Assembly (NCBI RefSeq): GCF_000145215.1
Contig: NC_014392.1
Coordinates: forward strand, 613,501-677,500
DNA length: 64,000 nt
Direction: 5' to 3'
DNA from: Caldicellulosiruptor obsidiansis OB47
GTDB taxonomy: Bacteria > Bacillota > Thermoanaerobacteria > Caldicellulosiruptorales > Caldicellulosiruptoraceae
The notes beneath the pieces were generated by a model. It did no database searches and was not told where the DNA came from. It was given only the letters and a program-made list of their open reading frames with translations. The position numbers and the translations under genes were made by a program. The first letter of the stretch is position 1; every line of letters starts with the position of its first letter. Of the stretch, positions 42,614 to 58,833 are shown in pieces.

Positions 42614-42747
42614 GAACTAATTTAGTTAGAAAATAGAGCATAAAGGAGTTTTATAAATTAAATTATAGAGTAGCTTATTGTGAAATGCAAATTTTTGAGG
42701 CAAGTTCTTGCCTGCTTTTAAACAACAATAAAGGGGTGGAACAAAAA

Positions 42748-45700
42748 ATGAAAAGAGTGTTTGCCATTTTTATATTGCTCATTTTTGTCATTTCTTTTGC
42801 TTTTCCTTTGTTGTCAACCAAGGTCTTTGCACAGAATTCAGCTCAGGTAAAGAAGCAAATTGGGATAAAAGTTGACCCAATTGGTCCTAATATAGCTGTA
42901 GGCAAAAATATTTTTTCTGACAGTGAAGCTACAACAAATCCGGCAACCCTTGCAAATGACGGTGATGAGACTACTTTTTGGAGTGCACAGGATGCAGGCA
43001 TTCATTGGCTGAAGATTGATTTGGGAGATGTTTATGCAAATCTCTTTGCAACCGAAATAGTTTTTAATGGTAATGGGAGCTATCAGTATAAAATTGAATA
43101 TTCAATAGATGACAATAGGTGGACAGTATTAGTAGACAAATCAAATAATATTGACACTTCACAAACGCAGTATGACAAGTTCATACCACCTGCCTCAGGG
43201 ATAAGATATATCCGTGTCACAATCACCTCAACACCAAACAATCAGCCAGCTTCAATAAAGGAGTTCAAGGTATACAAAATGGTTGATGATACTTTCATAA
43301 AGGGCGCAGATGTATCAATGCTAAAACAAATAGAAGATTGTGGCGGTAAGTTCTATTTGAACGGAGTCCAGATGGATGCACTTGAGATTTTGAAATATTT
43401 TGGAGTTAACTGGATAAGGCTTAGAATATGGAACCACCCATATTATACCGAAGATAAAAGTCAGCCGATGGGTGGAGGAAACTGTGATGCTGAAAACATG
43501 CTGGTGATTGCAAAAAGAGCAAAAGGTTTAGGAATGAAACTTTTGCTTGATTTTCATTACAGTGACTTTTGGGCAGATCCAGGAAAACAAGACAAGCCAA
43601 GAGCATGGGCAAATCTTTCATTTGACCAGCTAAAACAGGCAGTTTACCAGTATACTTATGACGTCATAAAAATGTACAAAGATCAAGGTGCACTTCCTGA
43701 CATGGTTCAGGTTGGAAATGAGGTTAATGGCGGTATGCTCTGGCCGGACGGGAAAACATGGGGCGAAGATGCTGGAGGATATGACAATTTTGCAGAGCTT
43801 CTAAAGGCAGGGATTAGAGGTGTAAGGGATGCAGCTGGTCCTGATAATCAGGTGAAGATTATGATTCACCTTGCTAACGGAGGGGACAATGAACTATACA
43901 GAAGAGTATTTGACAATTTGACGCAGCGTGGTGTTGAGTTTGATGTAATTGGACTTTCATATTACCCATACTGGCATGGAAAACTTAGTGATTTAATCTA
44001 CAATATGAATGATATTAGCAAAAGATATAACAAAGAGGTAGTTATTGCAGAAACAGCGTATGCATACACTTTAGAAAATGGAGATGGACTGAATAATATC
44101 TTTGGCACAAGGGAAGCTGCAACAGCTGGGTATGAGCCATCAGTCCAAAATCAAGCACTGGTTATTAGAAACATTGCAAATGCTGTAGCACAAGTTCCAG
44201 GTGGCAAAGGACTTGGCATATTCTATTGGGAGCCAGATTGGATACCTGTTGAAGGTGCTGGCTGGAAGACAGGCGAAGGAAATGGATGGGATAACCAAGC
44301 TATGTTTGATTTTAATGGAAATGCTTTGGATTCTCTGTATGTGTTCAAGATGCTCAATAACATCATGATTGTAGATTATAAACCAGTTGTTGTTGGAACA
44401 GCTCCAGGTGAAATGCCAAAACTTCCTGTTAAAATCACAGCTGTTTTGAGCAATGGTCTTACAAAAGAGGTTGATGTCACATGGGACAGTATTGACCCGT
44501 CAGAATATGCCCAAACTGGTAGCTTTGAAGTTTGTGGGCATGTTGAAGGTAGCGAGGTTACACCTGTTGCAAAAGTAAAAGTAGCAAATCTTATACAAAA
44601 TTCTGGCTTTGAAGATGATTTGAATGGATGGAATGTAGAGGGGCAGACTGGAGCAGCAAATGCAAATAGTAGTGCACCTGTCCGTTCTGGAAACAAGAAA
44701 TTAAATATTTGGTATGGATCGCCATACAATCTTGTAATATCTCAAACAATTACAGGCTTAGGGCAAGGCAAGTATACATTTAAAGCATGGTTTGTTAACA
44801 CTGGTAGTGCTCAAAAACGTGATATTGTAATAAAAGATTATGGTGGGCAGGAAATAAAAATACAAATTCCACAATCAGCTGCATGGGATGCTTGGACACC
44901 TGCTGAAATAAATGATATTAATGTGACAACAGGAAAGTGCACAATTTCATTTGAAATTGCTGCTGATTCAGGTTTTTGGTGTGCAATAGACGATGTTCTA
45001 TTCTATCGCCAGGACCCAGATATCGAAAAGAATATAGTGAGTGTTCAAAGATTAGATATTACAACAGAGGTAGGGCAAAAGCCTCAGCTTCCGCCAACTG
45101 TCATGGTGGTTTATGATGATGATACATCCTCTGAGGCAAATGTTACATGGGAAGCTATTGATGAGAGTAAATACTCAGCGATTGGTGAATTTACTGTTAC
45201 AGGTGTTGTAGAAGGCACAACTCTAAAAGCATATGCCAAAGTAAAGGTTATCAATAGCAAAAATCTTGTAAAAAATTATAGTTTTGAAGAGGGACTAAAG
45301 TATTGGATAAGCGAAGGAAATACTAATGCTGTCAAAACTGAAAGTGGAGGGCATTCTGGAGGAACGCAGCTTACTCACTGGAGTGACAAACCTTACAAGG
45401 CGGTCACATATCAAACAATCGAAAATATACCAAATGGTATATACATCTTCAGAGCCTTTGCAAATGGAGGCGGCGGCCAGAATGCTAACTACCTGTTTGT
45501 AAAAGACTATGGTGGAGAAGAACTGAGAATAAATATGCCGACCAAATGGGTCGCAGAGTGGCACAAAATGGTGATTGCAAACATTAAAGTTACCACTGGA
45601 CGTGTTACAATAGGGCTTTATTCAGATTCAGAGAATGCAGGAGGTACATGGTGCAACCTTGATGATGTTGAATTTTTCAAAGTTGCTGACAGGGAATTTG

Positions 45701-46002
45701 AAATTTCAAATGCAAGTCTGCAAAAAGATAAAGGACTTATTGCAAGTGTTACGGTAAAACAATCAGAAGGTATTCAGCATGATGGCAAAGAAGTTGTAGT
45801 GTTTGAACTATTAAAAGGGACAACTCCTATTTCAATTGTTGCTGTTGAAAAGGATATAGTAGGAGTTGAAGACTTTAAGGCTTACTTTAATGTAAATGAT
45901 TATCTGAGCACTGACTACAGGGTAAAAGTATTTGTATTTGACAAATTTGACACAAGCCTTACTACTCCAAATAGTCTTGCTGAGCCTATTGAGCTTCGAT
46001 GA
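42748..46002 (+). CDS. Arabinogalactan endo-beta-1,4-galactanase (GH53) with carbohydrate-binding modules
   Basis: Secreted multidomain enzyme of 1084 aa that cuts the beta-1,4-galactan side chains of pectin. The order is: signal peptide 1-30; F5/8-type CBM about 45-175; GH53 catalytic domain about 180-540 with E325 (GNEVNGG) as acid/base and E435 (IAETAYAYT) as nucleophile; Ig-like about 541-611; CBM61-like about 612-755; second Ig-like; second CBM61-like about 836-980; and a beta-rich tail. No SLH, so it is released. A possible start at 42685 is in frame, but AAAGGGGTGG fits ATG 42748 and the signal peptide. It sits in line with the LplABC genes before it. Confidence 0.93.
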   Translation: MKRVFAIFILLIFVISFAFPLLSTKVFAQNSAQVKKQIGIKVDPIGPNIAVGKNIFSDSEATTNPATLANDGDETTFWSAQDAGIHWLKIDLGDVYANLFATEIVFNGNGSYQYKIEYSIDDNRWTVLVDKSNNIDTSQTQYDKFIPPASGIRYIRVTITSTPNNQPASIKEFKVYKMVDDTFIKGADVSMLKQIEDCGGKFYLNGVQMDALEILKYFGVNWIRLRIWNHPYYTEDKSQPMGGGNCDAENMLVIAKRAKGLGMKLLLDFHYSDFWADPGKQDKPRAWANLSFDQLKQAVYQYTYDVIKMYKDQGALPDMVQVGNEVNGGMLWPDGKTWGEDAGGYDNFAELLKAGIRGVRDAAGPDNQVKIMIHLANGGDNELYRRVFDNLTQRGVEFDVIGLSYYPYWHGKLSDLIYNMNDISKRYNKEVVIAETAYAYTLENGDGLNNIFGTREAATAGYEPSVQNQALVIRNIANAVAQVPGGKGLGIFYWEPDWIPVEGAGWKTGEGNGWDNQAMFDFNGNALDSLYVFKMLNNIMIVDYKPVVVGTAPGEMPKLPVKITAVLSNGLTKEVDVTWDSIDPSEYAQTGSFEVCGHVEGSEVTPVAKVKVANLIQNSGFEDDLNGWNVEGQTGAANANSSAPVRSGNKKLNIWYGSPYNLVISQTITGLGQGKYTFKAWFVNTGSAQKRDIVIKDYGGQEIKIQIPQSAAWDAWTPAEINDINVTTGKCTISFEIAADSGFWCAIDDVLFYRQDPDIEKNIVSVQRLDITTEVGQKPQLPPTVMVVYDDDTSSEANVTWEAIDESKYSAIGEFTVTGVVEGTTLKAYAKVKVINSKNLVKNYSFEEGLKYWISEGNTNAVKTESGGHSGGTQLTHWSDKPYKAVTYQTIENIPNGIYIFRAFANGGGGQNANYLFVKDYGGEELRINMPTKWVAEWHKMVIANIKVTTGRVTIGLYSDSENAGGTWCNLDDVEFFKVADREFEISNASLQKDKGLIASVTVKQSEGIQHDGKEVVVFELLKGTTPISIVAVEKDIVGVEDFKAYFNVNDYLSTDYRVKVFVFDKFDTSLTTPNSLAEPIELR

Positions 46003-46094: not shown

Positions 46095-47738
46095 ATGAAA
46101 AAAGGAACAAGGATAGCTTCAGGTATTTTGCTTGTTTTTGTGTTTTTATTCTCCTTATTATCTGTAGGATTTTCTGCCCAGGAAGTTATTTTAAATTCCA
46201 TACCTGATAAAAGTCCAGGTGAAGATGTTGTAATTTCTGGGCAAACAGTGTTTGATGAGATTGTTGTCAAAGTATTGAGACCAAATTCTACCATGCTTTA
46301 TATAAATACAGTGAAGGGGAAAAATTTCAGTGACAAATTTACTTTACCAGCAGACTCGCCAGAGGGTACTTATACGGTTGTGGCTGGTAAAGGTTCTGTT
46401 GTGGATATAAAAACTTTCAATGTAGTAAAAAAACAATCATCTTTACCCTCTTCCTCCTCTGAGGTTTTAATACCTAATATCAAAGAAGCTGAAAAGCAGG
46501 TAGGTGCGCAATCATCTCAAAAGGAAGATATTAAACAAACTGATAAGACTGCTTTGCCTGAAATTACAATTGATAATAGTGGGATAATTAGACCCAAAAT
46601 ATCTCAGCTATCAGAGGAAAGGTTAGATGTTAAATTAGATGAGTCTTCAGTAACAAAAGCACTGCAGATGCAAGTGTCAAAGAAAAAAATTTTAACGTTA
46701 GATTTGAAAATAAGTAAACCTTTAGTGCAGTACAATATTGCGCTTCCATCGAGAGTATTTACAGCTTCTTTTGATATACAGGAAGTTTTAGTTAATACAG
46801 ATGAATTAAGCTTGAAACTTCCAGCTGACTTATTAAAGGAAAAGAACATAGACAATAACAAGCAAATTGAGATATTGATAAAAAAAGTGGAAAATTCTAA
46901 TATACCTTCAGAGATTCGCACGGCAGTTGGAAAAAGACCAATATATGAAATTGGGTTTTATCAAGATTTGAAAAAGTTGAATGTTGAAAGACCTACAAAT
47001 TCTATAAAAATATCTATTGCTTATACTCCTGGAGTAGAAGAGCTGAGCGGTATTGAAAACTTGGTAATGCTGCATATAAATGATGATGGGAAAGCAGAGG
47101 TTGTATCAAATAGCAAATATGTTGCTAATTCTAAACGTATGGTTGCGAATGTAAACAGTTTTAGCAAGTTTGCAGTGGGATATATTAGCAAAAAATTTGA
47201 CGATTTGAAGAATTATTCGTGGGCTGAAAAAGCTGTGTCTTCCCTGGCCACGAGAAATATAATAAGTGGTGCTGACCAAAATAGTTTTAGGCCTCAAGAA
47301 TATATAAAGCGTGGAGAGTTTGTCAAGTGGCTGGTAAATGCTCTTGGTCTTGATGCTCAGTATTCTTCAAACTTTGAAGATGTTAAAAAAGATAGTATCT
47401 ACTGGCGTGAAGTTGCAATTGCAAAAGCACTTGGCATTGCAAAGGGTTATGCGAATAAGTTTAAACCAGAAGATTATATAACAAGGGAAGATATGATGGT
47501 TCTTGTAGTAAGAGCGTTGGAGGTTGCAAACAAACCAATGGTAAAAACAAAAAGTAGCCTTGCAACTAAATTTTATGATTCATCTGATATATCTTCGTAT
47601 GCTCAAGATAGTATTTCTGTTTTGGTTGCAAATGATTTAATAAAAGGAAATAGCAAAAATCAAATACTGCCTCGAAAGTTTGCAACTCGTGCGGAAGCAG
47701 CTCAGCTTTTGTTCAGGATATTTTTCAAATGGGAATAA
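46095..47738 (+). CDS. SLH-domain surface protein of unknown function
   Basis: A 547-aa exported protein. Residues 1-30 are a signal peptide (GIASGILLVFVFLFSLLSVGFSA). The region about 30-110 looks Ig/CARDB-like (PGEDVVISGQTVFDEIVVKVLRP). A low-complexity linker follows (QSSLPSSSSEV; KEDIKQTDK). The middle (150-365) is beta-rich, with VNSFSKFAVGYISK as seen in S-layer associated proteins with an SGNH-like or beta-sandwich region. The C-terminus has three SLH repeats (about 370-547). Its proximity to glycosidases suggests an adhesin or cell-surface anchor. No catalytic residues are recognised. AAAGGAGG precedes ATG 46095. Confidence 0.85.
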   Translation: MKKGTRIASGILLVFVFLFSLLSVGFSAQEVILNSIPDKSPGEDVVISGQTVFDEIVVKVLRPNSTMLYINTVKGKNFSDKFTLPADSPEGTYTVVAGKGSVVDIKTFNVVKKQSSLPSSSSEVLIPNIKEAEKQVGAQSSQKEDIKQTDKTALPEITIDNSGIIRPKISQLSEERLDVKLDESSVTKALQMQVSKKKILTLDLKISKPLVQYNIALPSRVFTASFDIQEVLVNTDELSLKLPADLLKEKNIDNNKQIEILIKKVENSNIPSEIRTAVGKRPIYEIGFYQDLKKLNVERPTNSIKISIAYTPGVEELSGIENLVMLHINDDGKAEVVSNSKYVANSKRMVANVNSFSKFAVGYISKKFDDLKNYSWAEKAVSSLATRNIISGADQNSFRPQEYIKRGEFVKWLVNALGLDAQYSSNFEDVKKDSIYWREVAIAKALGIAKGYANKFKPEDYITREDMMVLVVRALEVANKPMVKTKSSLATKFYDSSDISSYAQDSISVLVANDLIKGNSKNQILPRKFATRAEAAQLLFRIFFKWE

Positions 47739-47801: not shown

Positions 47802-47992
47802 ATTTACTTTTCATAAATTCAAGTCTTTAATTTATTCAAATTGCAGCATATTGACAATTTTAATAAAAAGATATATAATCATTACAAAGTTTAAGCAAAC
47901 CTTTGCATTCACAAAAGACATTTTGGAGTTTCGGGTTTATTATTTGTTGCGTTGTTTCAAAAACTGATTAAATTAGCTAGGAGGTAAGAAAG

Positions 47993-50900
47993 ATGGTGAA
48001 AAAATTCGAGAGCAAACGTTTTATAAGTCTTTTGATGGTGGCCCTATTTATTGCTACTCTTATTTTCCCAATTTCTATTCTAGGGGCAGGTGAAAAAACA
48101 ACTCTCATCATTCACTACTACAGGTACAATGAAGACTATCAAGGTTGGAATTTGTGGATATGGCCTGTTGAGCCAGTTGGTGCAGAAGGCAAAGCTTATG
48201 AGTTTACTTCCAAGGATGACTTTGGAGTAAAAGCAGTAGTTGAACTTCCTGGGAAGGTAACAAAAGTAGGTATTATAGTTAGAAAAGGTAACTGGGAAGC
48301 AAAAGATGTTGCCGTTGACAGGTTCATCTCAGGAATCAGCGGTTCAAAAGAGGTTTGGCTGATAGAAGGTGAAGAGCAAATCTATACATCTCAGCCTCAG
48401 AAAACTCCGAAAATGACAGCATTTGTTGATGGCCTTAATACAATTGTTGTAAAGCTTGCAAAGAAAGCAGACATTCTTTCGAATAATAAAACTCAAGGTT
48501 TTAAAGTGACAGCTTTTTATGATGAAGTTCCTATCAAAAATGTTGAACCAGTTTTGCCGAAGATAAACAAAAATTTTAAGCCAGAAGAGGCAGGGTATGA
48601 GTTAATTGATGGCGGCACAAAAGTGAGATTTATATTAAAACCTGGTGCAGGTGATTTTAAATTTACAGACACATCTGGCAAGCTTGAGGTATATGTCTCT
48701 GGAACTATGAACGACTGGGGCGGAACGGCTTCTTCTGAAGGAAAGTACAAACCACTTCCTGCATGGAAAATGACATGGAATGCACAGAAAGGTTACTATG
48801 AACTTGTAAAAGAGCTTGGCAAAGATGGTGTTGTAATTGGTGCTAAGTTCAAGTTCACCTCATGGGATGGAACATCTGCAAAGTGGTATCCAGATGGAAT
48901 GGGAAATGACAAGGTTATTGAAGAGCTTTACACAGGTAATGAGAAGATCACAAAGGTTGATACGTTTAGAATCACAACTGTGGATGAATTAGAACCCCAG
49001 GTTCCTTATCTAATTTCAAAAGAAGGTTTTAAGCCAACGATTGCGCAGCCAAGAAATATATTAGATAATCCAAAGTATTATTATAAAGGCAATGACTTAG
49101 GATGCACATATACAAAAGCTTATTCAGCGTTCAGACTTTGGGCTCCAACAGCAATTGGAGTTGTAATGAGACTTTATGATGACTATAAGACTACAAAATA
49201 CAAAGAGTATGAGATGGAGCAGTCTGTTAATGGAACATGGTATCTTAAGATAAATGGAGATTTGAAAGGTAAATACTATCAGTATGAAGTTTGGCATGCT
49301 TCTAACTCTATAACCGACGATACAATCAGAAAATATGTTGTGCCAGACCCGTATTCAAGAGCAACATCTGCAAATTCTGAAAGGACTTTAATCTTTGACC
49401 CCAAAGATACAAACCCTGTTGGTTGGGAAAAAGATACTTTTGTGACACTGAAAAACCAAGAAGATGCTATAATTTATGAAACACATGTGAGAGATTTTAC
49501 AATAGATGATTCGAGCGGAATAAGACCGGAGTACAGGGGGAAATATTTAGGTTTTACTCAAACAGGAACAAAAGGACCAAATAGTGTAAAAACAGGTATT
49601 GATCATTTGAAAGAACTTGGTATAACTCATGTTCATTTACTCCCAACATATGATTTTGGTTCAGTGGACGAAACAAATCCAAATAAAACTTATAACTGGG
49701 GATATGATCCAGTTTTATATCAAAACGTTGAAGGTTCATATGCAACTAATCCAAATACAATTGCGAGGATTAAAGAGTACAAACAGATGGTTATGGCTCT
49801 GCACAAAGCAGGAATAGGTGTTATTCAAGATGTTGTATTTAACCACACATTCCAGATAGGAGATGCTAAGTTTTCAATATTTGACAAGGTAGTCCCTGGG
49901 TACTTTTACAGGAAAGACAAAGATGGTAACTACTCAAATGCCTCTGGTTGTGGCAACGAAATTGCAACAGAAAAGCCGATGGTGAGAAAGTTCATAATTG
50001 ATACATTGACATACCTTACAAAAGAATATCACATAGATGGTTTTAGATTTGACCTGATGGCAGCAATAGATAGAGTTACAATGGCAAAGGTACAAGAAGA
50101 AGTGAGGAAGATAAATCCGTCGGCAGTTATCTATGGTGAGGGATGGCTTGCAGGTGCAACACCGCTTGATAGCTCACTTAGAATGGAGATAGGCTCATTT
50201 AATCAAGCTGGACTTCATATAGGGTTCTTTAATGACAGAATTAGAGAGGCAATCAGAGGCAATCTTGACAATGAATCTAAAGGATTTATGCAAGGTAACT
50301 ATTCATATAGGTTAGATGATCTCAAGAGAGGAATTCAGGGTGGACTGGGTGATTTTGCTACAGACCCGGATGAATGCATAAACTATGTTTCGGCACATGA
50401 CAACTTAACTCTTTGGGATAAACTTCAAAAGAGTGTGCCAAATGAACCAGATTATATCAAGGATAAAATGGGCAGACTGGCAAATGCAATTGTTTTGACA
50501 GCACAGGGTGTTCCATTCTTACATGGAGGAGTTGAGTTCAACAGGACAAAGTTTATGAACAGCAACTCATACAATGCAGGTGACAGGATAAACAAGTATG
50601 ACTGGAACTTGAAAGTAAAGTGGTACAATACTTTCAAGTACTATCAAGGTTTAATTGCACTAAGAAAAGCTCATCCAGCCTTCAGAATGACAACTGCAGA
50701 AGACATACAGAAATATCTTACATTTATCCCAACACCGAAAGGAACATTAGGATTTAGACTCACATATCCAAAAGATACATGGAATGATATAATTGTTGTT
50801 TATAACTCAACAAAGAAGGTACAAGAGATAACATTACCAGTAGGGAACTGGGTAGTTGTTGCAAATGGAGATGAAGTTGGCACAACACCAATTAAGAAGC

Positions 50901-51403
50901 TTACAAACTATGTTGCTGGCAAAGCATTGGTTGCACCAATTTCCATGTTTGTTGCATACAAGAGCGATGAATTCCCACAGGGTTTTGTGAAGGTTGTTAG
51001 TAAAGACCCAGTTTCACTTGAAACAGCAACAACCATTTTAACACCAAAAGTCTATGGAACAGGTAATGTGGCTGTTACATTTAACGTAAAAGTTCCAGCT
51101 GGCACAGATGATGATGTTATATACTTGGCGGGTTCGTTCGGGAAAGCTGGGCTTTCTGACTGGAATCCAGGCGACAAAGATGGTGCAATTGAACTTGTGA
51201 AAACACAAGATGGAACATACACTGTTACTCTAAGACTCAATAGTGGTGATACTTTTGAGTACAAGTACACAAGAGGTAGCTGGTCAACGGTTGAAAAAGG
51301 TGCAAACAAAGAAGAGATAGAAAACAGGAAATTTACAGTAAAAGATGATGGTAGTGGAAAGATGACTATAAATGATATTGTTCTAAATTGGGCTGATAAA
51401 TAA
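47993..51403 (+). CDS. Type I pullulanase (GH13) with C-terminal starch-binding module
   Basis: Secreted 1136-aa debranching enzyme for alpha-1,6 links of starch, glycogen or pullulan. Signal peptide 1-31; N-terminal CBM41-like module about 33-135 ([18 protein letters not shown]); further beta modules to about 365; CBM48-like region about 370-470; catalytic barrel about 490-880, with the type I signature YNWGYDP at 567-573, nucleophile D687 (FRFDLM), acid/base E716 (IYGEGW) and D803 (SAHDN). The C-terminal CBM20-like module (about 1010-1136) shares [15 protein letters not shown] with two modules of the next protein. AGGAGG precedes ATG 47993. Confidence 0.95.
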
Positions 51404-51416
51404 AAATTCATGCTTT

Positions 51417-51463
51417 TTCCACCTTGCACTATTAATCAGAACAAAATTTGTGCAAGGTGGGAA
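51417..51463 (+). terminator. Hairpin between pullulanase and SLH starch-binding gene
   Basis: CCACCTTGCAC (51419-51429) / GTGCAAGGTGG (51450-51460), with only a weak following A/T run; it may be partly read through. Confidence 0.65.
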
Positions 51464-51499: not shown

Positions 51500-54400
51500 A
51501 TGAAAAAGAATTTAGAAAGGTTTCTTGCTTTGTTGGTAAGTTTTGCATTTGTCTTTTCATTAGTTTTAAACATTCTACCTCAACAGGCAAGAGCAGCAGA
51601 TACCATAAAGATTGTAGGTAACTGGCCAGATGCAGGTAATTGGAATTTTGATGCATCCACAATTGTTCTGAATGAGACATCAACTCCGGGACTTTATTAT
51701 GGAGAATATACATTCCTAAATGCAGGAAATTATGAATTTAAGGTTGCAGAGAACGGTGTAAATTGGTTTGCAACAGCAACGACTGTAGGATACAGTGGTG
51801 AAAATATAAAATATACAGCTCAAGTTAACGATGTGATAAAATTTTGGTATTTTAAAAATTCTCATCTACTTTTGTTAAGTCCAGATTTTCCAAATGGACC
51901 TTCTGACATAGGTGTAACTCATAGTCTAAAAATGTTTGGAGTTAATGATGATTGGAATGATGCCAATGATAACTACATTTTGCAATCGGTAAACGGTGCA
52001 ACTTATACCTATGTTTTTGATGCAACAAATCAAGATTTGTCATTACCATGGGGTTTCAAAGTTGCTTTTAACAAAATGAATGGAAATTGGTGGAAATGGT
52101 CAGCTACAGGTGACAATGGCAAGATTACATTTAGAGACAATGGTGGCGATAATATTAATATAAGTGAACTAAAAGACAACGGTAACCTTTTAAAAACTAA
52201 GTACTATGTTGACCTAATAAACGGTTGGCTCTTTACAGAGAAAGACTTGACAAATATTCAACCACGTGACTTTGCAAATAACAGCTCTGTAATAGGTGGA
52301 AGTTCCATTCATCTTGCATGGGATCCATATACACCAAATGCAAATCCACTTTCAGCCAAGCTTTACTATAAAATAGTTGATGTGAGCAACAACAGTGAAT
52401 TGGTTAGCCTCACTGATTACAGCACAAGCAACAGGATAGATATCCCAAGAGAGTGGATAGGGAAGACAATTAAAATTGTTGCAAATACACAAATAGGCGA
52501 AATAACAGGACCTAATGTTGAATTTACTTTGAATGTAGTGGATTTACCACAAGATCAAATAGTTGCAGCAGCAAATTATATCACTTATAACTGCATCGAT
52601 GAAACCTTTTTAAAATTGGCAGAAGGTGATAGTTTCCAGAGTATAACTTCAAATTTCTCAGTTGTTACATCATACGTTTATGAGGTTGCGTATGAAGGAA
52701 ATAACTATCCTTTGACATTTGCAATTGATTGGGAAAGCAACAATTCGGATATATTAGCAATTAATGGAACTACGGTCACAGTTACAAGGCCCACACTGGG
52801 TGATCTTCAGGTTGATTTGAAGGCAAAAGCGAGATTTGGTTCTGTTGTGGCAGATGGGCAAAAAACCTTCACTCTTACGGTAAAGAAATTTTTATTAGGA
52901 GTAGACGGTGGTGTACCTGTAACATTCAATGTGACCGTACCTGATTACACTCCGGCTGGAGATAACCTATACATTGCAGGAGATTTCAAAACAAATAAAC
53001 TACCGTACTGGGACCCGGCAGGAATTAAGCTTATGAAAACTGGGGATAAAACCTATAGTATCACATTATATCTTCCACAAGGAGCTGTGATTGAGTATAA
53101 ATATACACGAGGAAATTGGTCGAAAGTTGAAAAGAATGCTTACGGCCAAGAAATTCCGAACAGGGTGCTAATTGTCACAGGACCAAGTATGACAAAGAGT
53201 GATGTAATTGAAGCATTTGCTGACCTTGGACCGACAAAGCAAGGAGGGCTTCCGTCAATTAATTTAGTTATTAATCTTCCCCAACAGACTGTAATTGATA
53301 CAGGTGATGGTGGAAAAGTAATAAAAGCGGAAGGCGGTGCTATTTCAGTTGCAAATAGTAAGAATGCTGTTTTGATAGACAGTCGTAGTGTATTAAATGC
53401 TATTATAAAAGGTGAAAATTATTCTATAGCCGTGAAAAGTTCTCAACAAGTTTATCCAGTAGTAAATATTGAAAGAGAAGCGGTGGAAACTTTAAAAGAA
53501 AAGGGAGTAAAAAGGATAGAGATAAAATATCCTGACACATCAGTTTTTGTTGATATATATAAGTCAGTGACGAGTGACATTCAAGTTCAAGCATTTCAGT
53601 CTTCCAAAGAAGAAAATAAAACAGCTGAATCACTGCTCTTAAAAAATGTTGATGATTATACAACTGTAAAAGTCATAGGTATGAAAGAGTTTAAAATAAT
53701 AAGAGGAGAAGAGCTTGATACTTCGTCAAATACTATCTATGTATTTAAGTTCAATTCTCCTGTGGAAGAAGGAGTTGTACCATGCATAATAAATAATGAT
53801 AATATAACACCAGTGAAAGATTATTACACAGAAGATAGCTACTTAGTTGTTAAAGCTAAAGGTAGTCAAAAAATCGCTTTTGCAAAGGTAGAGAAAAAAT
53901 TTGATGATAGTGACTCGCTCAGCCACGAGGTTGCTACACTAGTAAGCCTCGGTCTTGTTACAGGGGACAATACAAACAGGATTAATCTGGACAGACATAT
54001 TTCTCGAGCTGAGTTAGCAGCACTTATTGGAAAGGCTTTTGACTTGTATCAAAGATACTACAGAAATTACTTTGCAGATGTATCAAAATATGAGTGGTAT
54101 GCTCCATATGCAGAAGCCCTCAAGGAGAAGGGTATCCTAGATGGATATAACAACAAGTTCAATCCTAAAGGTCTTGTAACAAGAGAACAATTAGCTAAAA
54201 TTGCTGTAAATATAGCTGAGCAATATATAAGCAAAGAACAACAGCCAAAAACAATTGCAGATTTTGATAAAATTTCTTTATGGGCAAAGGAATATGTCCA
54301 AAAAGCATTAGCATATGAAATCATGAGTGTAGATGATCAGGGAAATTTCAGACCACAGGACTATGCTACAAGAGAAGAGGTATTTAATACAATTTATAAT

Positions 54401-54793
54401 CTAATAGTTGTGAAAAACAAAAATCTAAAGGATTATATAACTGCTGATTTAAAACCATATGGTGTTGAGGTAACATTCAAAGTTAAAGTTCCACAAAATA
54501 CACCGGATGATAACATTCATATTGCTGGAACATTTAGTGCAGTAGGTTATAGTGATTGGAATCCTTCTGATAACAATTTGAAGCTTTCAAAGAATGCAGA
54601 TGGTACTTATTCAATCACAATGTATATTCCTGAAGGAACAACCATTGAGTACAAATATGTCAGAGGCGAGTGGAGTAAGGTGGAAAAAGGACCAAATGGT
54701 GAGGAATTATCAAATAGAAGTGTAACAATCAAAAAAGGAGCAGATAACAAAATGTTCATTGAAGATACTGTTTCTAAGTGGGCAGATAAATAG
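51500..54793 (+). CDS. SLH-anchored surface protein with starch-binding-like modules, no catalytic domain
   Basis: A 1097-aa exported protein. Signal peptide 1-33. Two N-terminal beta modules (about 34-130, WPDAGNWNFDASTIVLNET; about 134-250) resemble CBM or SusE/F-like glycan binders. Then an FN3-like and an Ig-like stretch, CBM20-like module about 468-560 (EYKYTRGNWSKVEKN), a long beta region, SLH repeats about 800-985 (ADVSKYEWYAPYAEALKEKGIL) and a second CBM20-like module at 990-1097 (EYKYVRGEWSKVEKG). SLH repeats lie inside, not at the end. No GH catalytic motif is found. It may capture starch or amylopectin at the cell surface for the pullulanase. The RBS GGAGGTGGAG precedes ATG 51500. 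Confidence 0.88.
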   Translation: MKKNLERFLALLVSFAFVFSLVLNILPQQARAADTIKIVGNWPDAGNWNFDASTIVLNETSTPGLYYGEYTFLNAGNYEFKVAENGVNWFATATTVGYSGENIKYTAQVNDVIKFWYFKNSHLLLLSPDFPNGPSDIGVTHSLKMFGVNDDWNDANDNYILQSVNGATYTYVFDATNQDLSLPWGFKVAFNKMNGNWWKWSATGDNGKITFRDNGGDNINISELKDNGNLLKTKYYVDLINGWLFTEKDLTNIQPRDFANNSSVIGGSSIHLAWDPYTPNANPLSAKLYYKIVDVSNNSELVSLTDYSTSNRIDIPREWIGKTIKIVANTQIGEITGPNVEFTLNVVDLPQDQIVAAANYITYNCIDETFLKLAEGDSFQSITSNFSVVTSYVYEVAYEGNNYPLTFAIDWESNNSDILAINGTTVTVTRPTLGDLQVDLKAKARFGSVVADGQKTFTLTVKKFLLGVDGGVPVTFNVTVPDYTPAGDNLYIAGDFKTNKLPYWDPAGIKLMKTGDKTYSITLYLPQGAVIEYKYTRGNWSKVEKNAYGQEIPNRVLIVTGPSMTKSDVIEAFADLGPTKQGGLPSINLVINLPQQTVIDTGDGGKVIKAEGGAISVANSKNAVLIDSRSVLNAIIKGENYSIAVKSSQQVYPVVNIEREAVETLKEKGVKRIEIKYPDTSVFVDIYKSVTSDIQVQAFQSSKEENKTAESLLLKNVDDYTTVKVIGMKEFKIIRGEELDTSSNTIYVFKFNSPVEEGVVPCIINNDNITPVKDYYTEDSYLVVKAKGSQKIAFAKVEKKFDDSDSLSHEVATLVSLGLVTGDNTNRINLDRHISRAELAALIGKAFDLYQRYYRNYFADVSKYEWYAPYAEALKEKGILDGYNNKFNPKGLVTREQLAKIAVNIAEQYISKEQQPKTIADFDKISLWAKEYVQKALAYEIMSVDDQGNFRPQDYATREEVFNTIYNLIVVKNKNLKDYITADLKPYGVEVTFKVKVPQNTPDDNIHIAGTFSAVGYSDWNPSDNNLKLSKNADGTYSITMYIPEGTTIEYKYVRGEWSKVEKGPNGEELSNRSVTIKKGADNKMFIEDTVSKWADK

Positions 54794-54816: not shown

Positions 54817-54848
54817 GATAGGATTGAGAGGTACCTCTCAATCCTATC
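54817..54848 (+). terminator. Perfect 32-base palindrome after the SLH starch-binding gene
   Basis: GATAGGATTGAGAGGT (54817-54832) followed directly by its exact reverse complement (54833-54848), with no loop; AT-rich flanks but no clear T run. It can be a strong RNA stem or, as DNA, a large cruciform. Confidence 0.65.
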
Positions 54849-54924: not shown

Positions 54925-56880
54925 ATGAAGTTTTTCAAAAGTATATCTAAGAGATTAAAAGAGTACATGAAAAACAAATTAAATTTTGCAAAAGTAATAA
55001 GTTTCTTGCTTATTGTTTTGTTTGCATGTTTAATAGTATTTTCTACATATTCTGTGGCTAAAAACATAGCTGTTTCAGCGGAATTGAAATCAGCAAAAAA
55101 CATTGTAGCGTCTGTTAACAAGTATTTGGAGTACAAACTTAACTTAGTTGAAGTTCAGGCTGATTCGTTTGCTAGCAATCCGCAGGTGGTAAAATTAGTA
55201 ACACAATACGACAGTCTTGATGATTATGAAAAATACGCAATTGATAATGCAATTCAGCAATATCTTAATGCTATTTCAGATACTGCAAAAGTTATTTCAT
55301 TTATCTTATATATTCCAAAGCATCCTAATATAACTCCCCAATTGAGAGGGCAAAGTCCTTACAATGTGAATTATATAGGGCAAAATAGGAATTTAATAAG
55401 TCAATTAAAAGAGGAAGGCTGGGGAAATCTTCCGTCTGATTTAGAAATTAAATTTGGAGCTGATAAAGATACAGTAAATCAATCCATTTGTTATTTTAAG
55501 TGGATTGGAGATAAAAACAAAAAAGAGGGAATAGTAATATTTGGAGTTAGCTTTGAATTGCTTAACGAATTGTTGGATGAAGCTTATGGTAGCAGTGCTG
55601 ATAAATTTTTGCTTGTTTCTAATCAAAAAGTTGTTTATAGCAAGACAAAAATGAGCTTGAATGCGGTAAAGCATATTGGGTTAGATGAATTTATTGTAAA
55701 AGATAAGAAGTTAATTTATCGCTATAGAGTGGCAAATTTTCCGTTGGATATATATGTGGTAAAACAAGTTGAATTCAAAGGTTTAACATATATTCCTTTT
55801 ATAATATTTTTATTTATAGCATTATTGGCATGGAGAATTCTATCTATGATAATGAAAAACATAAAGAAAGAACTAACAGCAATTGAAACATATATGAATA
55901 CATTGCAACCGACAAACGAAATAAAGTTATTAAATGAGTTTTACAATTCTGCTCAAGAATTGATTGAAACTAAGGAAGAAATTTCAAGGATGAATGTTGA
56001 CATAACCAAAAAGTTTAGCGTATATTTGGAAAATGCATTAAAAAGTGTTAATATAATGATCGAAGAAATTCATGGTATTGAAGACAATCTGGAAAGTATA
56101 AATGGGATATGGTATAAAATGAAAGAATTATTTTTAAGCATCTCAGATAATATAAATAAAATAATGGTAACAGAAGATAAATTTTCTAAACGTTTTATTG
56201 AAGATAATCAAAAAATTCAGGAAGAAGCACAGAAATTGAGAGATATTATTAGTGATTATAAACATAAGATAAAGGATATAATAAATAAGAAAAAGGTAGC
56301 ATTGACTAAGATAGATCAAATTTCCACGCAACTTGAAAAGCTAAAGGAATTAGAGAATTTCAATAGACAGAGTATAAATTCAGTTGAACAATTGGACATA
56401 ATATCGCTAAATTCTATAATAAAAACAGCGAAAGAAGAATCAAACAGAACATTAAATATGATTAGTCAGCAGTTGATTTATCAAACAAAATTATTAAAGT
56501 CGGATTTAGTAAACATTACAAAAATAATTCAAAACATAATAAAAAGTACGCCTTCTATATCAAAATATAACAACATTATGAATAACATGGATTTATACAC
56601 AAGTTATGACATGCATTTTGATGAAATAAAAAGAGTATTACATGAAATGTCAGAAAATGTTATAGAAGTTAACGATAAGACTAAACAACAGAAAGATGTT
56701 TTAAGAAAGATGATAGACAACTATAATATAGCGTTTGATGAGATTACAAACATGAAAGATTATTTTTATGAGCTTACAAGTAGTTTAAGAGCATATAGAA
56801 CGTCTGTAGATAGTTTGAAAAACCAGTTGCAAGAAATAGTAGAGATAATAACAAAGTTAAAAAAGCATTGGAGTGAATAA
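54925..56880 (+). CDS. Receptor-like membrane protein with long coiled coil (degenerate chemoreceptor)
   Basis: A 651-aa membrane protein: TM1 about residues 22-45, an extracellular dCACHE-like domain to about 285, TM2 about 288-306, then about 340 residues of coiled coil in the cytoplasm. Near residue 490, LDIISLNSIIKTAKEESNRTLNMISQQL sits where a chemoreceptor has [27 protein letters not shown], so I read it as a chemoreceptor hairpin whose tip has decayed. CheA/CheW binding is then doubtful. It is followed two bases later by a related gene. No ribosome site stronger than GAAGGTG precedes ATG 54925. Confidence 0.7.
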   Translation: MKFFKSISKRLKEYMKNKLNFAKVISFLLIVLFACLIVFSTYSVAKNIAVSAELKSAKNIVASVNKYLEYKLNLVEVQADSFASNPQVVKLVTQYDSLDDYEKYAIDNAIQQYLNAISDTAKVISFILYIPKHPNITPQLRGQSPYNVNYIGQNRNLISQLKEEGWGNLPSDLEIKFGADKDTVNQSICYFKWIGDKNKKEGIVIFGVSFELLNELLDEAYGSSADKFLLVSNQKVVYSKTKMSLNAVKHIGLDEFIVKDKKLIYRYRVANFPLDIYVVKQVEFKGLTYIPFIIFLFIALLAWRILSMIMKNIKKELTAIETYMNTLQPTNEIKLLNEFYNSAQELIETKEEISRMNVDITKKFSVYLENALKSVNIMIEEIHGIEDNLESINGIWYKMKELFLSISDNINKIMVTEDKFSKRFIEDNQKIQEEAQKLRDIISDYKHKIKDIINKKKVALTKIDQISTQLEKLKELENFNRQSINSVEQLDIISLNSIIKTAKEESNRTLNMISQQLIYQTKLLKSDLVNITKIIQNIIKSTPSISKYNNIMNNMDLYTSYDMHFDEIKRVLHEMSENVIEVNDKTKQQKDVLRKMIDNYNIAFDEITNMKDYFYELTSSLRAYRTSVDSLKNQLQEIVEIITKLKKHWSE

Positions 56881-56882
56881 GA

Positions 56883-58787
56883 ATGGTAGGCACGTCAAGA
56901 CTTTTAAGAAGACAAGTATCAGGATTTTTGTTTTTTTTATATACAATTTTGTTGATTGTTTCGATATTAACAAATTATGCTGTTCCCAAAAGGACTTTAG
57001 AAAAAGAGCTTAAAAAAAGCTTTGAAGGTGATGCTAAGGCAATATCTGAGCAATTTGAAAGTTATTTCAAGTTTGTGAATGACATGCTTTTGTCGTTTTC
57101 ATTAAATAGAGAGGTTTCAAGAATTCTTACTTTGTCTCAGGAAGATGCTAAAAGTAAAGATAATATAGCGTCGTATGAAATAATACTTTCAAGCTTAAAA
57201 GATGCAGCTCAGCGATTGGGTGGAGACTTGTATCTTCATGTTAAAGACACTTATTTGTTTGCAAATCTTAAAGGAGAAATTGGGAATGCTAAATTTGAAG
57301 AACTTGCTATGTTAGAAAAAGTTGCATCTATAGAAGCAGATATTCCACTTACTGTATATTCTGACAAGGATAAATTAGTGTTTGAAATGCCAGTTTTGAA
57401 TTTTATGACTTTTAATAAGATTGGAGAAATATATCTTGTAGTGAATAAAGCAAGTATATTGCAAAATGTACTCAAAACCTATGAACACTATCAGTTTGTT
57501 GTAAAAACAAAAGACGGGGAAGTGTTAATAAGTAAGGGAAAAGCAGGCAGAGAGCAATTTGTATATTCACAAAATGTAGTTGGTGGCAATTTTAACTTGT
57601 CTGTAGGTGGTGCTAAAGACTATATATTCAGACAAATAAGCTTTGTTCGTTGGTTATTTTTGATACTAACTTTTATATCAATGATCTTTATTATTGTACT
57701 ATCATTGTTTATTTCCAACGTTGTAGTTAATCCTTTAAAAGGATTGGAACAATTATTCAAAAAAATAAAGGAGAAAGATTTGAGTGTTGAGAAAAAGATA
57801 AGTCAAATAAATGATGAAATAGACAAAATTTATAATTCCTTCTTTAGAATTCTGCAATCCCTAAAAAAGCCGATAATGTATTTTAATGAAATAATAAATA
57901 ATCCAAATATATCTAAAAGTAAATTTGAAAATGTGATTCAACAGAGTGAAGATATAAACAAAGAGATTAATGAAAAATCAATAAAATTTTTAAATTCATT
58001 GGAAAGGCAGAGAGATTGTTTGAAAGTTTTAAGTGAAAGCATGGACATGTATATGCATAACCTGGAAGATATCAAAGTATATTTACTGAATCAAGGTAAT
58101 AGATTAAAGACATTAGATAGTTTATGCAGTTCATTTAAGTTAGAGGTAAGAAAAGTAGAAAATTATACTGATGAGATCGAAGAAATATTGTCTCACTATA
58201 GCAGTATTGTTAGCGATTTAAGCAATAAGATAAAAGAATTAATAAAGTTATCCGACAATTCTGGAAGATTAGCAAGAGGATTAAAAATGGTGCAAATTTC
58301 AGTTAAGATAGAGTTGATGAACAACAAAATTGCAAATTTTATAGACGTTTCAGCACTTGAAAAACTAATAAGTGGTATAGAACAACTAATTACAAGATTT
58401 TATGATGTGTTAAAGAATATTGATGATACGAATCAAGATGTTATAAGGGAAATTTGGAATCTACACAGTGATTTAAAAAGAGACGAAGATTTACAAGAAC
58501 AATTTTTGTCGGTACTAAACAAGATGGAAAGCAACATTTTGGGAGTGTACCAAAAAATTAATGATGTGACTAATGAAATTGATATATTGAAGTCAAAGAT
58601 TCAAGAAGTTAACAATGAGATTGCTATTGACATTGCAAAACTAAATAATACCAAAAATAATGTTCAGCAAGTGCTGACTGATTGTTTTTCAATAAAAGAA
58701 AATATAGAACACATGATGAATGAAATTGCAAAGGTTGAACAACTTGCAAAAGAAATAAAAAAATATGCATCTGCTTATAAGCTTTAA
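56883..58787 (+). CDS. Second receptor-like membrane protein with HAMP and coiled coil
   Basis: A 634-aa membrane protein with TM1 about 15-33, an extracellular sensor region to about 255, TM2 about 257-280 (WLFLILTFISMIFIIVLSLFI), then HAMP (VVVNPLKGLEQLFKKIKEKDLS) and a long coiled coil. A weak remnant of a chemoreceptor tip may be GLKMVQISVKIELMNNKIANFIDVSALEKL, but the canonical residues are missing. The gene starts two bases after the preceding one stops and probably forms a pair with it. The function is unknown; they could act as a scaffold or as a sensor feeding an unknown output. Confidence 0.7.
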   Translation: MVGTSRLLRRQVSGFLFFLYTILLIVSILTNYAVPKRTLEKELKKSFEGDAKAISEQFESYFKFVNDMLLSFSLNREVSRILTLSQEDAKSKDNIASYEIILSSLKDAAQRLGGDLYLHVKDTYLFANLKGEIGNAKFEELAMLEKVASIEADIPLTVYSDKDKLVFEMPVLNFMTFNKIGEIYLVVNKASILQNVLKTYEHYQFVVKTKDGEVLISKGKAGREQFVYSQNVVGGNFNLSVGGAKDYIFRQISFVRWLFLILTFISMIFIIVLSLFISNVVVNPLKGLEQLFKKIKEKDLSVEKKISQINDEIDKIYNSFFRILQSLKKPIMYFNEIINNPNISKSKFENVIQQSEDINKEINEKSIKFLNSLERQRDCLKVLSESMDMYMHNLEDIKVYLLNQGNRLKTLDSLCSSFKLEVRKVENYTDEIEEILSHYSSIVSDLSNKIKELIKLSDNSGRLARGLKMVQISVKIELMNNKIANFIDVSALEKLISGIEQLITRFYDVLKNIDDTNQDVIREIWNLHSDLKRDEDLQEQFLSVLNKMESNILGVYQKINDVTNEIDILKSKIQEVNNEIAIDIAKLNNTKNNVQQVLTDCFSIKENIEHMMNEIAKVEQLAKEIKKYASAYKL

Positions 58788-58794
58788 AGAGAAA

Positions 58795-58833
58795 AGAAGG
58801 CTGTCCAACTCATTATTGGACAGCCTTCTATTT
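58795..58833. terminator. Bidirectional terminator
   Basis: AGAAGGCTGTCCAA (58795-58808) / TTGGACAGCCTTCT (58816-58829) with a seven-base loop between the converging coiled-coil and nuclease genes; A and T runs flank it. Confidence 0.85.

Follow-up and report, generated by a model that had tools for sequence, protein, structure and literature searches.

Does the protein with surface-layer homology (SLH) repeats that is encoded next to a pullulanase in Caldicellulosiruptor obsidiansis OB47 act on alpha-glucan as an enzyme, or does it hold alpha-glucan at the cell surface? The window analyzed here is the whole stretch of 64 kb at positions 613,501 to 677,500 of contig NC_014392.1; "gene 1" denotes its open reading frame (ORF) at 51500-54793, and "genes 2 and 3" denote the ORFs directly 3' of gene 1. 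An earlier note on this DNA had proposed that gene 1 encodes a non-catalytic SLH protein that captures starch at the surface, as a simple analogue of the starch utilization system (Sus). Our analysis suggests, with good probability, that the gene 1 protein is a non-catalytic S-layer protein holding alpha-glucan beside the pullulanase, a reading that derives from its sequence and module families. Comparisons covered 13 genomes of the order, labeled G000 (the genome of the window) to G012.

Module architecture of the gene 1 protein

The features of gene 1, whose module borders were partly set by eye, are as follows.

51500..54793, + strand: gene 1, 1097 aa without internal stop, an SLH protein with X25 and CBM20 modules (Pfam; ratio of non-synonymous to synonymous divergence, dN/dS, 0.15 outside the X25 block)
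51500..51598, + strand: signal peptide, residues 1-33, read by eye from the sequence
51599..51889, + strand: X25 module a (X25a), residues 34-130, with W48 and W89 (Pfam X25_BaPul_like, 29.5 bits; fold match)
51890..52264, + strand: X25 module b (X25b), residues 131-255, with W152 and W198 (Pfam X25, 14.1 bits, below the cut-off; fold match to SusF in a low-confidence part of the model)
51710..52219, + strand: putatively replaced block, residues 71-240 (synonymous divergence between G000 and G009 of 2.29 vs 0.109 elsewhere; identity by module)
52265..52888, + strand: Ig-like stretch and aBig_2 module, residues 256-463 (aBig_2 E 3.8e-8 on a fragment)
52907..53227, + strand: CBM20-1, residues 470-576 (Pfam CBM_20, E 3.2e-10)
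53228..53899, + strand: pre-SLH stretch, residues 577-800 (no Pfam family)
53900..54439, + strand: three SLH repeats, residues 801-980 (Pfam SLH, E 4e-29 on a fragment, three stretches)
54452..54790, + strand: CBM20-2, residues 985-1097 (Pfam CBM_20, E 8.6e-11)

Translated in all six frames, the window contains exactly three copies of the motif EYKY.RG.W..VEK, from which the earlier note had deduced starch-binding-like modules shared with the pullulanase: one in the pullulanase (51257-51298) and two in gene 1 (53093-53134 and 54647-54688). All three modules belong to CBM20 by Pfam, including the pullulanase copy (E 1.6e-9), and the SLH repeats do lie between the two CBM20 modules of the gene 1 protein. 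As fragments the latter reached 40.1 and 41.9 bits vs a curated cut-off of 23.3, and CBM20-1 is 49% identical to CBM20-2 and 48% identical to the CBM20 of the pullulanase. One Trp of the main-site pair is aligned in each (W504 and W1020). The three SLH repeats would fix the protein to the cell wall, as we infer from the SLH family and from the S-layer pyruvyl-transferase CsaB, which is encoded in the genome (TIGR03609, 269.5 bits vs a cut-off of 213.1).

The earlier note had missed the N-terminal X25 pair, the aBig_2/Ig-like stretch and the linked downstream genes. X25a lies above its Pfam cut-off of 27 bits, and the whole gene 1 protein reached 45 bits. A structural model of the pair (residues 31-262) was built from an alignment of the window sequence with nine X25 pairs from amylopullulanase-type proteins, and its confidence was modest (pLDDT 58.8, pTM 0.64). 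Among 350,542 chains searched by Foldseek, the best two matches of this model were 7rpy (E 2e-4), which is the X25-2 domain of Sca5 from Ruminococcus bromii, and SusF (4fe9, E 1.9e-3), while the third had E 0.16. By VIA-align, X25a matched the X25 of the Bacillus acidopullulyticus pullulanase (2wan) with Z 9.1 and Sca5 (7rpy) with Z 8.7, and X25b matched SusF with Z 7.2, a range also reached by common folds. Because X25b combines a score below the Pfam cut-off with this fold match to SusF, we refer to it as X25-like. A sequence search of the PDB with the profile of the X25 pair returned 11 matches up to E 10, with Sca5 and SusF absent; we read its top matches, to chains of interferon gamma at E 0.0026 or weaker, as chance.

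Eleven loci were obtained when genome contigs were scanned a second time, with the X25 pair of amylopullulanases as query; L097 was dropped due to a frame break, and L101 was kept in the 11-row X25 alignment but omitted from the fold model as a near-copy of L100. The first contig scan, which used a full-length alignment, found no gene 1 relative in 194 pattern matches from a collection that may omit records near the genome of the window. Two Trp per X25 module are invariant in all 11 aligned pairs, and W48, W89, W152 and W198 are present in all five full-length gene 1 proteins. According to the available text on Sca5 and Sas20, starch is held in one cleft between two X25 modules by four Trp, and single modules of the pair bound no starch (PMC9112005). 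The modeled fold and the invariant Trp make it likely that the X25 pair of gene 1 works by the same principle as this four-Trp clamp.

Between the window genome and G009 gene 1 is 95-97% identical, except in X25a (59%) and X25b (48%), and synonymous divergence rises steeply over residues 71-240; outside this block dN/dS relative to G009 is 0.15. The simplest reading of these sequences is that the X25 block was replaced from another source in the window genome, whose copy is the odd one, since the G009 pair resembles those of the remaining genomes including the other genus. No donor was found among 61 relatives searched. The platform Trp survive the replacement. CBM20-2 has a separate history, with a synonymous divergence to G002 of 0.26 vs 0.98 for gene 1 with its X25 block excluded. 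Across the two genera the binding modules are the most conserved parts of the protein (X25a 60-77%, X25b 50-62%, CBM20 57-60%, linkers 21-34% identity).

The pullulanase neighborhood and related systems

The neighbor named in the earlier note is indeed a type I pullulanase by its TIGR02104 match, and the features around it and in the spacers of the locus are the following.

47993..51403, + strand: type I pullulanase; modules PUD, CBM48, GH13 and, at the C-terminus, CBM20; SLH absent (TIGR02104, 697 bits vs a cut-off of 504.5; Pfam)
47851..47906, + strand: perfect promoter TTGACA-17-TATAAT (47851-47879) and MalR-like box GCAAACCTTTGC (47895-47906), from a sequence scan
51419..51460, + strand: inverted repeat in the pullulanase/gene 1 spacer (seven genomes compared; bases changed, form kept, by eye)
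54817..54848, + strand: inverted repeat in the gene 1/gene 2 spacer (five genomes compared; bases changed, form kept, by eye)
58795..58829, + strand: terminator-like hairpin 3' of gene 3

We propose that the gene 1 protein would be secreted and bound to the cell wall by its SLH repeats, that its X25 pair may form a two-lobed alpha-glucan clamp like that of Sca5/Sas20 (the fold being supported by the model), and that the two CBM20 modules, assigned by family, would add alpha-glucan sites. Starch or glycogen would thus be held near the wall, where the secreted neighboring pullulanase, which carries a CBM20 of the same kind and no SLH, could debranch it, and the products would presumably be taken up by maltodextrin transporters. 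The gene 1 protein follows the order of SLH amylopullulanases (X25-X25-GH13-CBM20-SLH), with the core swapped for Ig-like spacers and a second CBM20 added; such a replacement of the catalytic core would mean that catalysis and anchoring are divided between neighboring genes.

Control of the pullulanase promoter by maltodextrin is likely from its conserved box, which we take to be a MalR site from its likeness to such sites and from the regulon reported for C. bescii. The box is exact in 12 of the 13 genomes (it is missing in G012), and the 265,512 nt compared contain no further exact copy. Sigma-70-type matches across the region were at the shuffled level (57 vs 56.0), and the sole one used is the perfect promoter beside the box. 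The MalR regulon of C. bescii includes pulA-amyX (PMC8579813, available passages). In G012, unlike hairpins occupy both intergenic spacer positions. Upstream of the pullulanase, the window encodes an SLH protein of 547 aa that lacks known binding modules (46095-47738), preceded by a protein of GH53 that carries F5/8 type C and Big_4 modules (42685-46002). Of the 12 other genomes, seven have a relative of the 547-aa protein upstream of their pullulanase, and G004 has a 142-aa piece.

Among known systems, Sas20 and Sca5 of R. bromii provide the closest working comparison. They are likewise non-catalytic and carry a tandem X25 pair with two Trp each, the X25-2 of Sca5 being the best Foldseek match, whereas Sas20 relies on a dockerin for attachment and Sca5 has cohesins together with a sortase signal (PMC9112005, as far as available). 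The gene 1 protein instead uses SLH repeats and adds two CBM20 modules, and no dockerin or cohesin was found in it (Pfam, E up to 1). The comparison with Sus drawn in the earlier note goes deeper than its module evidence allowed, because the X25 modules share the fold of SusF and SusE, even though the R. bromii proteins are closer as a working analogue. SusE and SusF of Bacteroides thetaiotaomicron are surface starch-binding proteins built of X25-type modules, with SusF as the second Foldseek match, but they have neither SLH nor CBM20. They are outer-membrane lipoproteins of a Gram-negative cell, and the other Sus parts (SusC/SusD) are not expected in a Gram-positive cell.

The SLH amylopullulanases of Thermoanaerobacterium and Thermoanaerobacter (L084, L091-L098) share the module order X25-X25-...-CBM20-...-SLH x3, as seen in L084, a Thermoanaerobacterium-type amylopullulanase with two X25, GH13, CBM20 and three SLH by Pfam. 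In contrast to the gene 1 protein, they carry GH13, and a second CBM20 after the SLH repeats is peculiar to the gene 1 protein. Beyond the order, 6 of the 398 genomes searched in the phylum gave a match to the X25-pair profile; in four of these six (L084, L085, L086 and L087) the protein was of GH13 type in every case, and the remaining two genomes were seen in part. The 11 named X25-pair loci include Thermoanaerobacterium, Thermoanaerobacter and Caldanaerobacter, and L099-L101 are of GH13 type by eye. Caldicellulosiruptor species have 10-19 S-layer proteins each, and other SLH proteins and enzymes of the genus are similarly located in the S-layer and bear CBMs, whereas those named in the available text attach to cellulose, pectin or xylan (PMC7142884). 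We found no description of a catalysis-free SLH starch-binding protein of the genus in the titles, abstracts and passages of openly licensed papers, and the protein may figure in other SLH inventories.

A three-gene cassette and its membrane pair

While the pullulanase is present in all 13 genomes, gene 1 is full length in only five (G000, G009, G002, G001 and G012, the last from another genus with ~45% identity), broken in G011, cut to 637 aa in G007 and to 215 aa in G003, and absent in G004, G005, G006, G008 and G010. G000, G009, G002, G001, G012 and G011 all carry true relatives of genes 2 and 3, and none of the other genomes does. All three genes are thus found in 6 of the 13 genomes (one of them decayed, with gene 3 of G011 also broken), none of the three in five, and only a gene 1 stump in two, so that genes 1-3 form a cassette present or absent as a unit. 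The earlier note's picture of surface alpha-glucan capture without catalysis is consistent with the module anatomy, from which binding can be predicted, but its unit of SLH protein plus pullulanase was incomplete, because gene 1 is retained or lost together with the two membrane genes. In G007 and G003 pieces of ORFs for a mutator-family transposase (PF00872) lie between the stump and the next gene (L041:8673-9898 and L043:8508-9734), and the right-hand border of both loci is identical. The pullulanase tree is near-star, with 9 of 10 inner branches open, and is too flat for losses of the cassette to be counted. An A-run in the G009 copy of gene 2 (L038:9780-9830) is one base short, which breaks the gene and may reflect a true frameshift, a switchable run or a sequencing error. 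The gene after the cassette in G012 encodes an alpha-amylase by Pfam that looks secreted (L088:5399-6817).

G007 is presumably C. bescii. Its 637-aa ORF lies downstream of the pullulanase and is 68% identical to residues 1-635 of gene 1. Since we take G007 as C. bescii, its gene Athe_0610 (AmyX) is probably this stump, cut by a transposon; it matches the N-terminal part of the gene 1 protein but lacks the SLH repeats and CBM20-2, and a transposase lies beside the break.

The two membrane genes are listed here.

54925..56880, + strand: gene 2, membrane coiled-coil protein, 651 aa, with a tip-like stretch at residues 480-517, possible degenerate chemoreceptor
56883..58787, + strand: gene 3, membrane coiled-coil protein, 634 aa, with a weak HAMP, probable degenerate chemoreceptor

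By eye, each carries two membrane segments, the first of them N-terminal, with an outer domain of ~230 residues between them and a long coiled coil after the second, a layout resembling that of methyl-accepting chemotaxis proteins, and the two share a remote similarity (hhalign probability 33, E 4.6e-4 over 70 columns). Unlike in those receptors, their tip is degenerate or unrecognizable. No Pfam family scored above its cut-off in the two proteins or their relatives, and MCPsignal had no match in the two window proteins (E up to 1) or in five plus five relatives (0.01). The outside matches that were inspected (L058, L107, L122, L123 and L125) were chemoreceptors in five of five cases, four of them above the MCPsignal cut-off and L058 at 33.7 vs 34.6. 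For profile comparison by hhalign we used 11 of 15 own-genome receptor matches, omitting L110, L114 and L116 as well as L107, in which the pattern used did not detect a tip; duplicates were dropped from the set of 11 receptor tips. Gene 3 matched the 11 receptors with probability 91 and E 9e-7 (reversed control 7, E 5e-3), and gene 2 with probability 32, aligned at the receptor tip (reversed control 5). In the tip scan, 18 to 54 of 500 shuffles that kept the heptads scored equally high for the five gene 2 rows, and the best site for gene 3 fell off the hairpin middle in four of five rows. A receptor test with single-sequence hidden Markov models (HMMs) was rejected as its control failed, since the top score, 22.5 bits, went to reversed gene 2 and exceeded that of real gene 2, and a single-sequence structure of gene 3 (mean pLDDT 45.1, pTM 0.31) was not used. 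These comparisons are moderate evidence for a receptor resemblance of the pair, with the profiles speaking for gene 3 and weakly for gene 2, and on balance favor receptor ancestry.

It is conceivable, if doubtful, that the locus is a capture-and-sense unit in which the SLH protein concentrates alpha-glucan while genes 2 and 3, as degenerate chemoreceptors, would sense released maltodextrins and signal, or cluster other receptors. The occurrence of genes 2 and 3 in exactly the six genomes with a full or decayed gene 1, the chemoreceptor nature of all inspected outside matches and the profile match of gene 3, far above its reversed control, speak for such a unit. This is countered by the missing MCPsignal match in the two proteins themselves, the low probability for gene 2, the failed reversed control of the HMM test and the weak tip scan, and also by G009, which retains gene 1 despite the deletion in gene 2, and by the hairpin in the gene 1/gene 2 spacer, due to which these genes may not be co-transcribed. 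Similarly tentative is the broader idea that the three genes would be one surface module, lost or kept as a unit, in which a catalysis-free S-layer starch clamp and a dedicated pair of degenerate chemoreceptors couple the capture of insoluble polymer to sensing in a Gram-positive thermophile and the clamp is exchanged between lineages as a block.

Other possible functions of gene 1 and meaning of the locus

Two further explanations concern gene 1 itself. Papers present its C. bescii relative Athe_0610 as a glycoside hydrolase that carries a starch-binding domain (PMC5865380; PMC12096829; both as far as available), and AmyX, which by its operon is presumably Athe_0610, is listed among extracellular hydrolases (PMC8579813, available passages), which would suit an enzyme whose catalytic domain is hidden in residues 256-463 or 577-800. 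Against this, and in agreement with the earlier note's claim that the protein is non-catalytic, no glycoside hydrolase family was matched in the whole protein or in eight fragments (Pfam, E up to 1), no catalytic family by NCBIfam (0.01), and no Alpha-amylase family match, as expected for the GH13 domain of an amylopullulanase, was found in the protein by Pfam. Residues 256-349, which had no Pfam family above cut-off in the fragment scan, and residues 577-800 are the least conserved parts (27-30% and 26-28% identity to G012), and other SLH ORFs of the genus gave matches that span residues 609-800. A hidden enzyme is thus highly improbable, and as far as family scans of the sequence can tell it is ruled out. 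In C. bescii, proteomics associates the shortened relative with switchgrass and with xylan (PMC5865380, available part), which might instead suggest an adhesin with a true target other than starch, such as xylan or a cell-wall glycan, with its modules kept by descent alone. We consider this improbable too, given that all four binding modules come from starch-binding families, that the fold neighbors of the X25 pair are alpha-glucan proteins, that the adjoining gene encodes a pullulanase and that the platform Trp were retained through the block replacement.

Several observations weigh against an S-layer protein that holds alpha-glucan. X25b scores only 14.1 bits and is poorly modeled, with model residues 161-193 under pLDDT 50 and a mean of 58.8. 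The residue after VE is Lys in six of six aligned CBM20 modules, with a conserved Trp four residues before; the geometry of the CBM20 site is unsure, because this Lys stands at the position where glucoamylase carries one Trp of its main site. The lack of an intact gene 1 in 8 of the 13 genomes indicates that it is dispensable for having the pullulanase. Furthermore, RNA data showed the pulA-amyX operon to be up on cellulose, cellobiose and glucose, and growth on starch is unreported in the available passages of that paper (PMC8579813).

An S-layer protein that holds alpha-glucan remains the reading we prefer. What is new here is the module build, the probable re-reading of Athe_0610 and the linked membrane pair, while the working mode is akin to that of Sas20/Sca5 and SusE/F. 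If Athe_0610 is a transposon-cut stump and no enzyme, its annotation and the reading of the proteomics would need revision. Non-catalytic Gram-positive starch holders are known from gut amylosomes, and an S-layer counterpart in an extremely thermophilic cell would, if true, represent the same split between capture and catalysis with a different anchor. The protein may also offer heat-stable parts for starch display, and the linked receptor-like pair makes a coupling of polymer capture and sensing testable.

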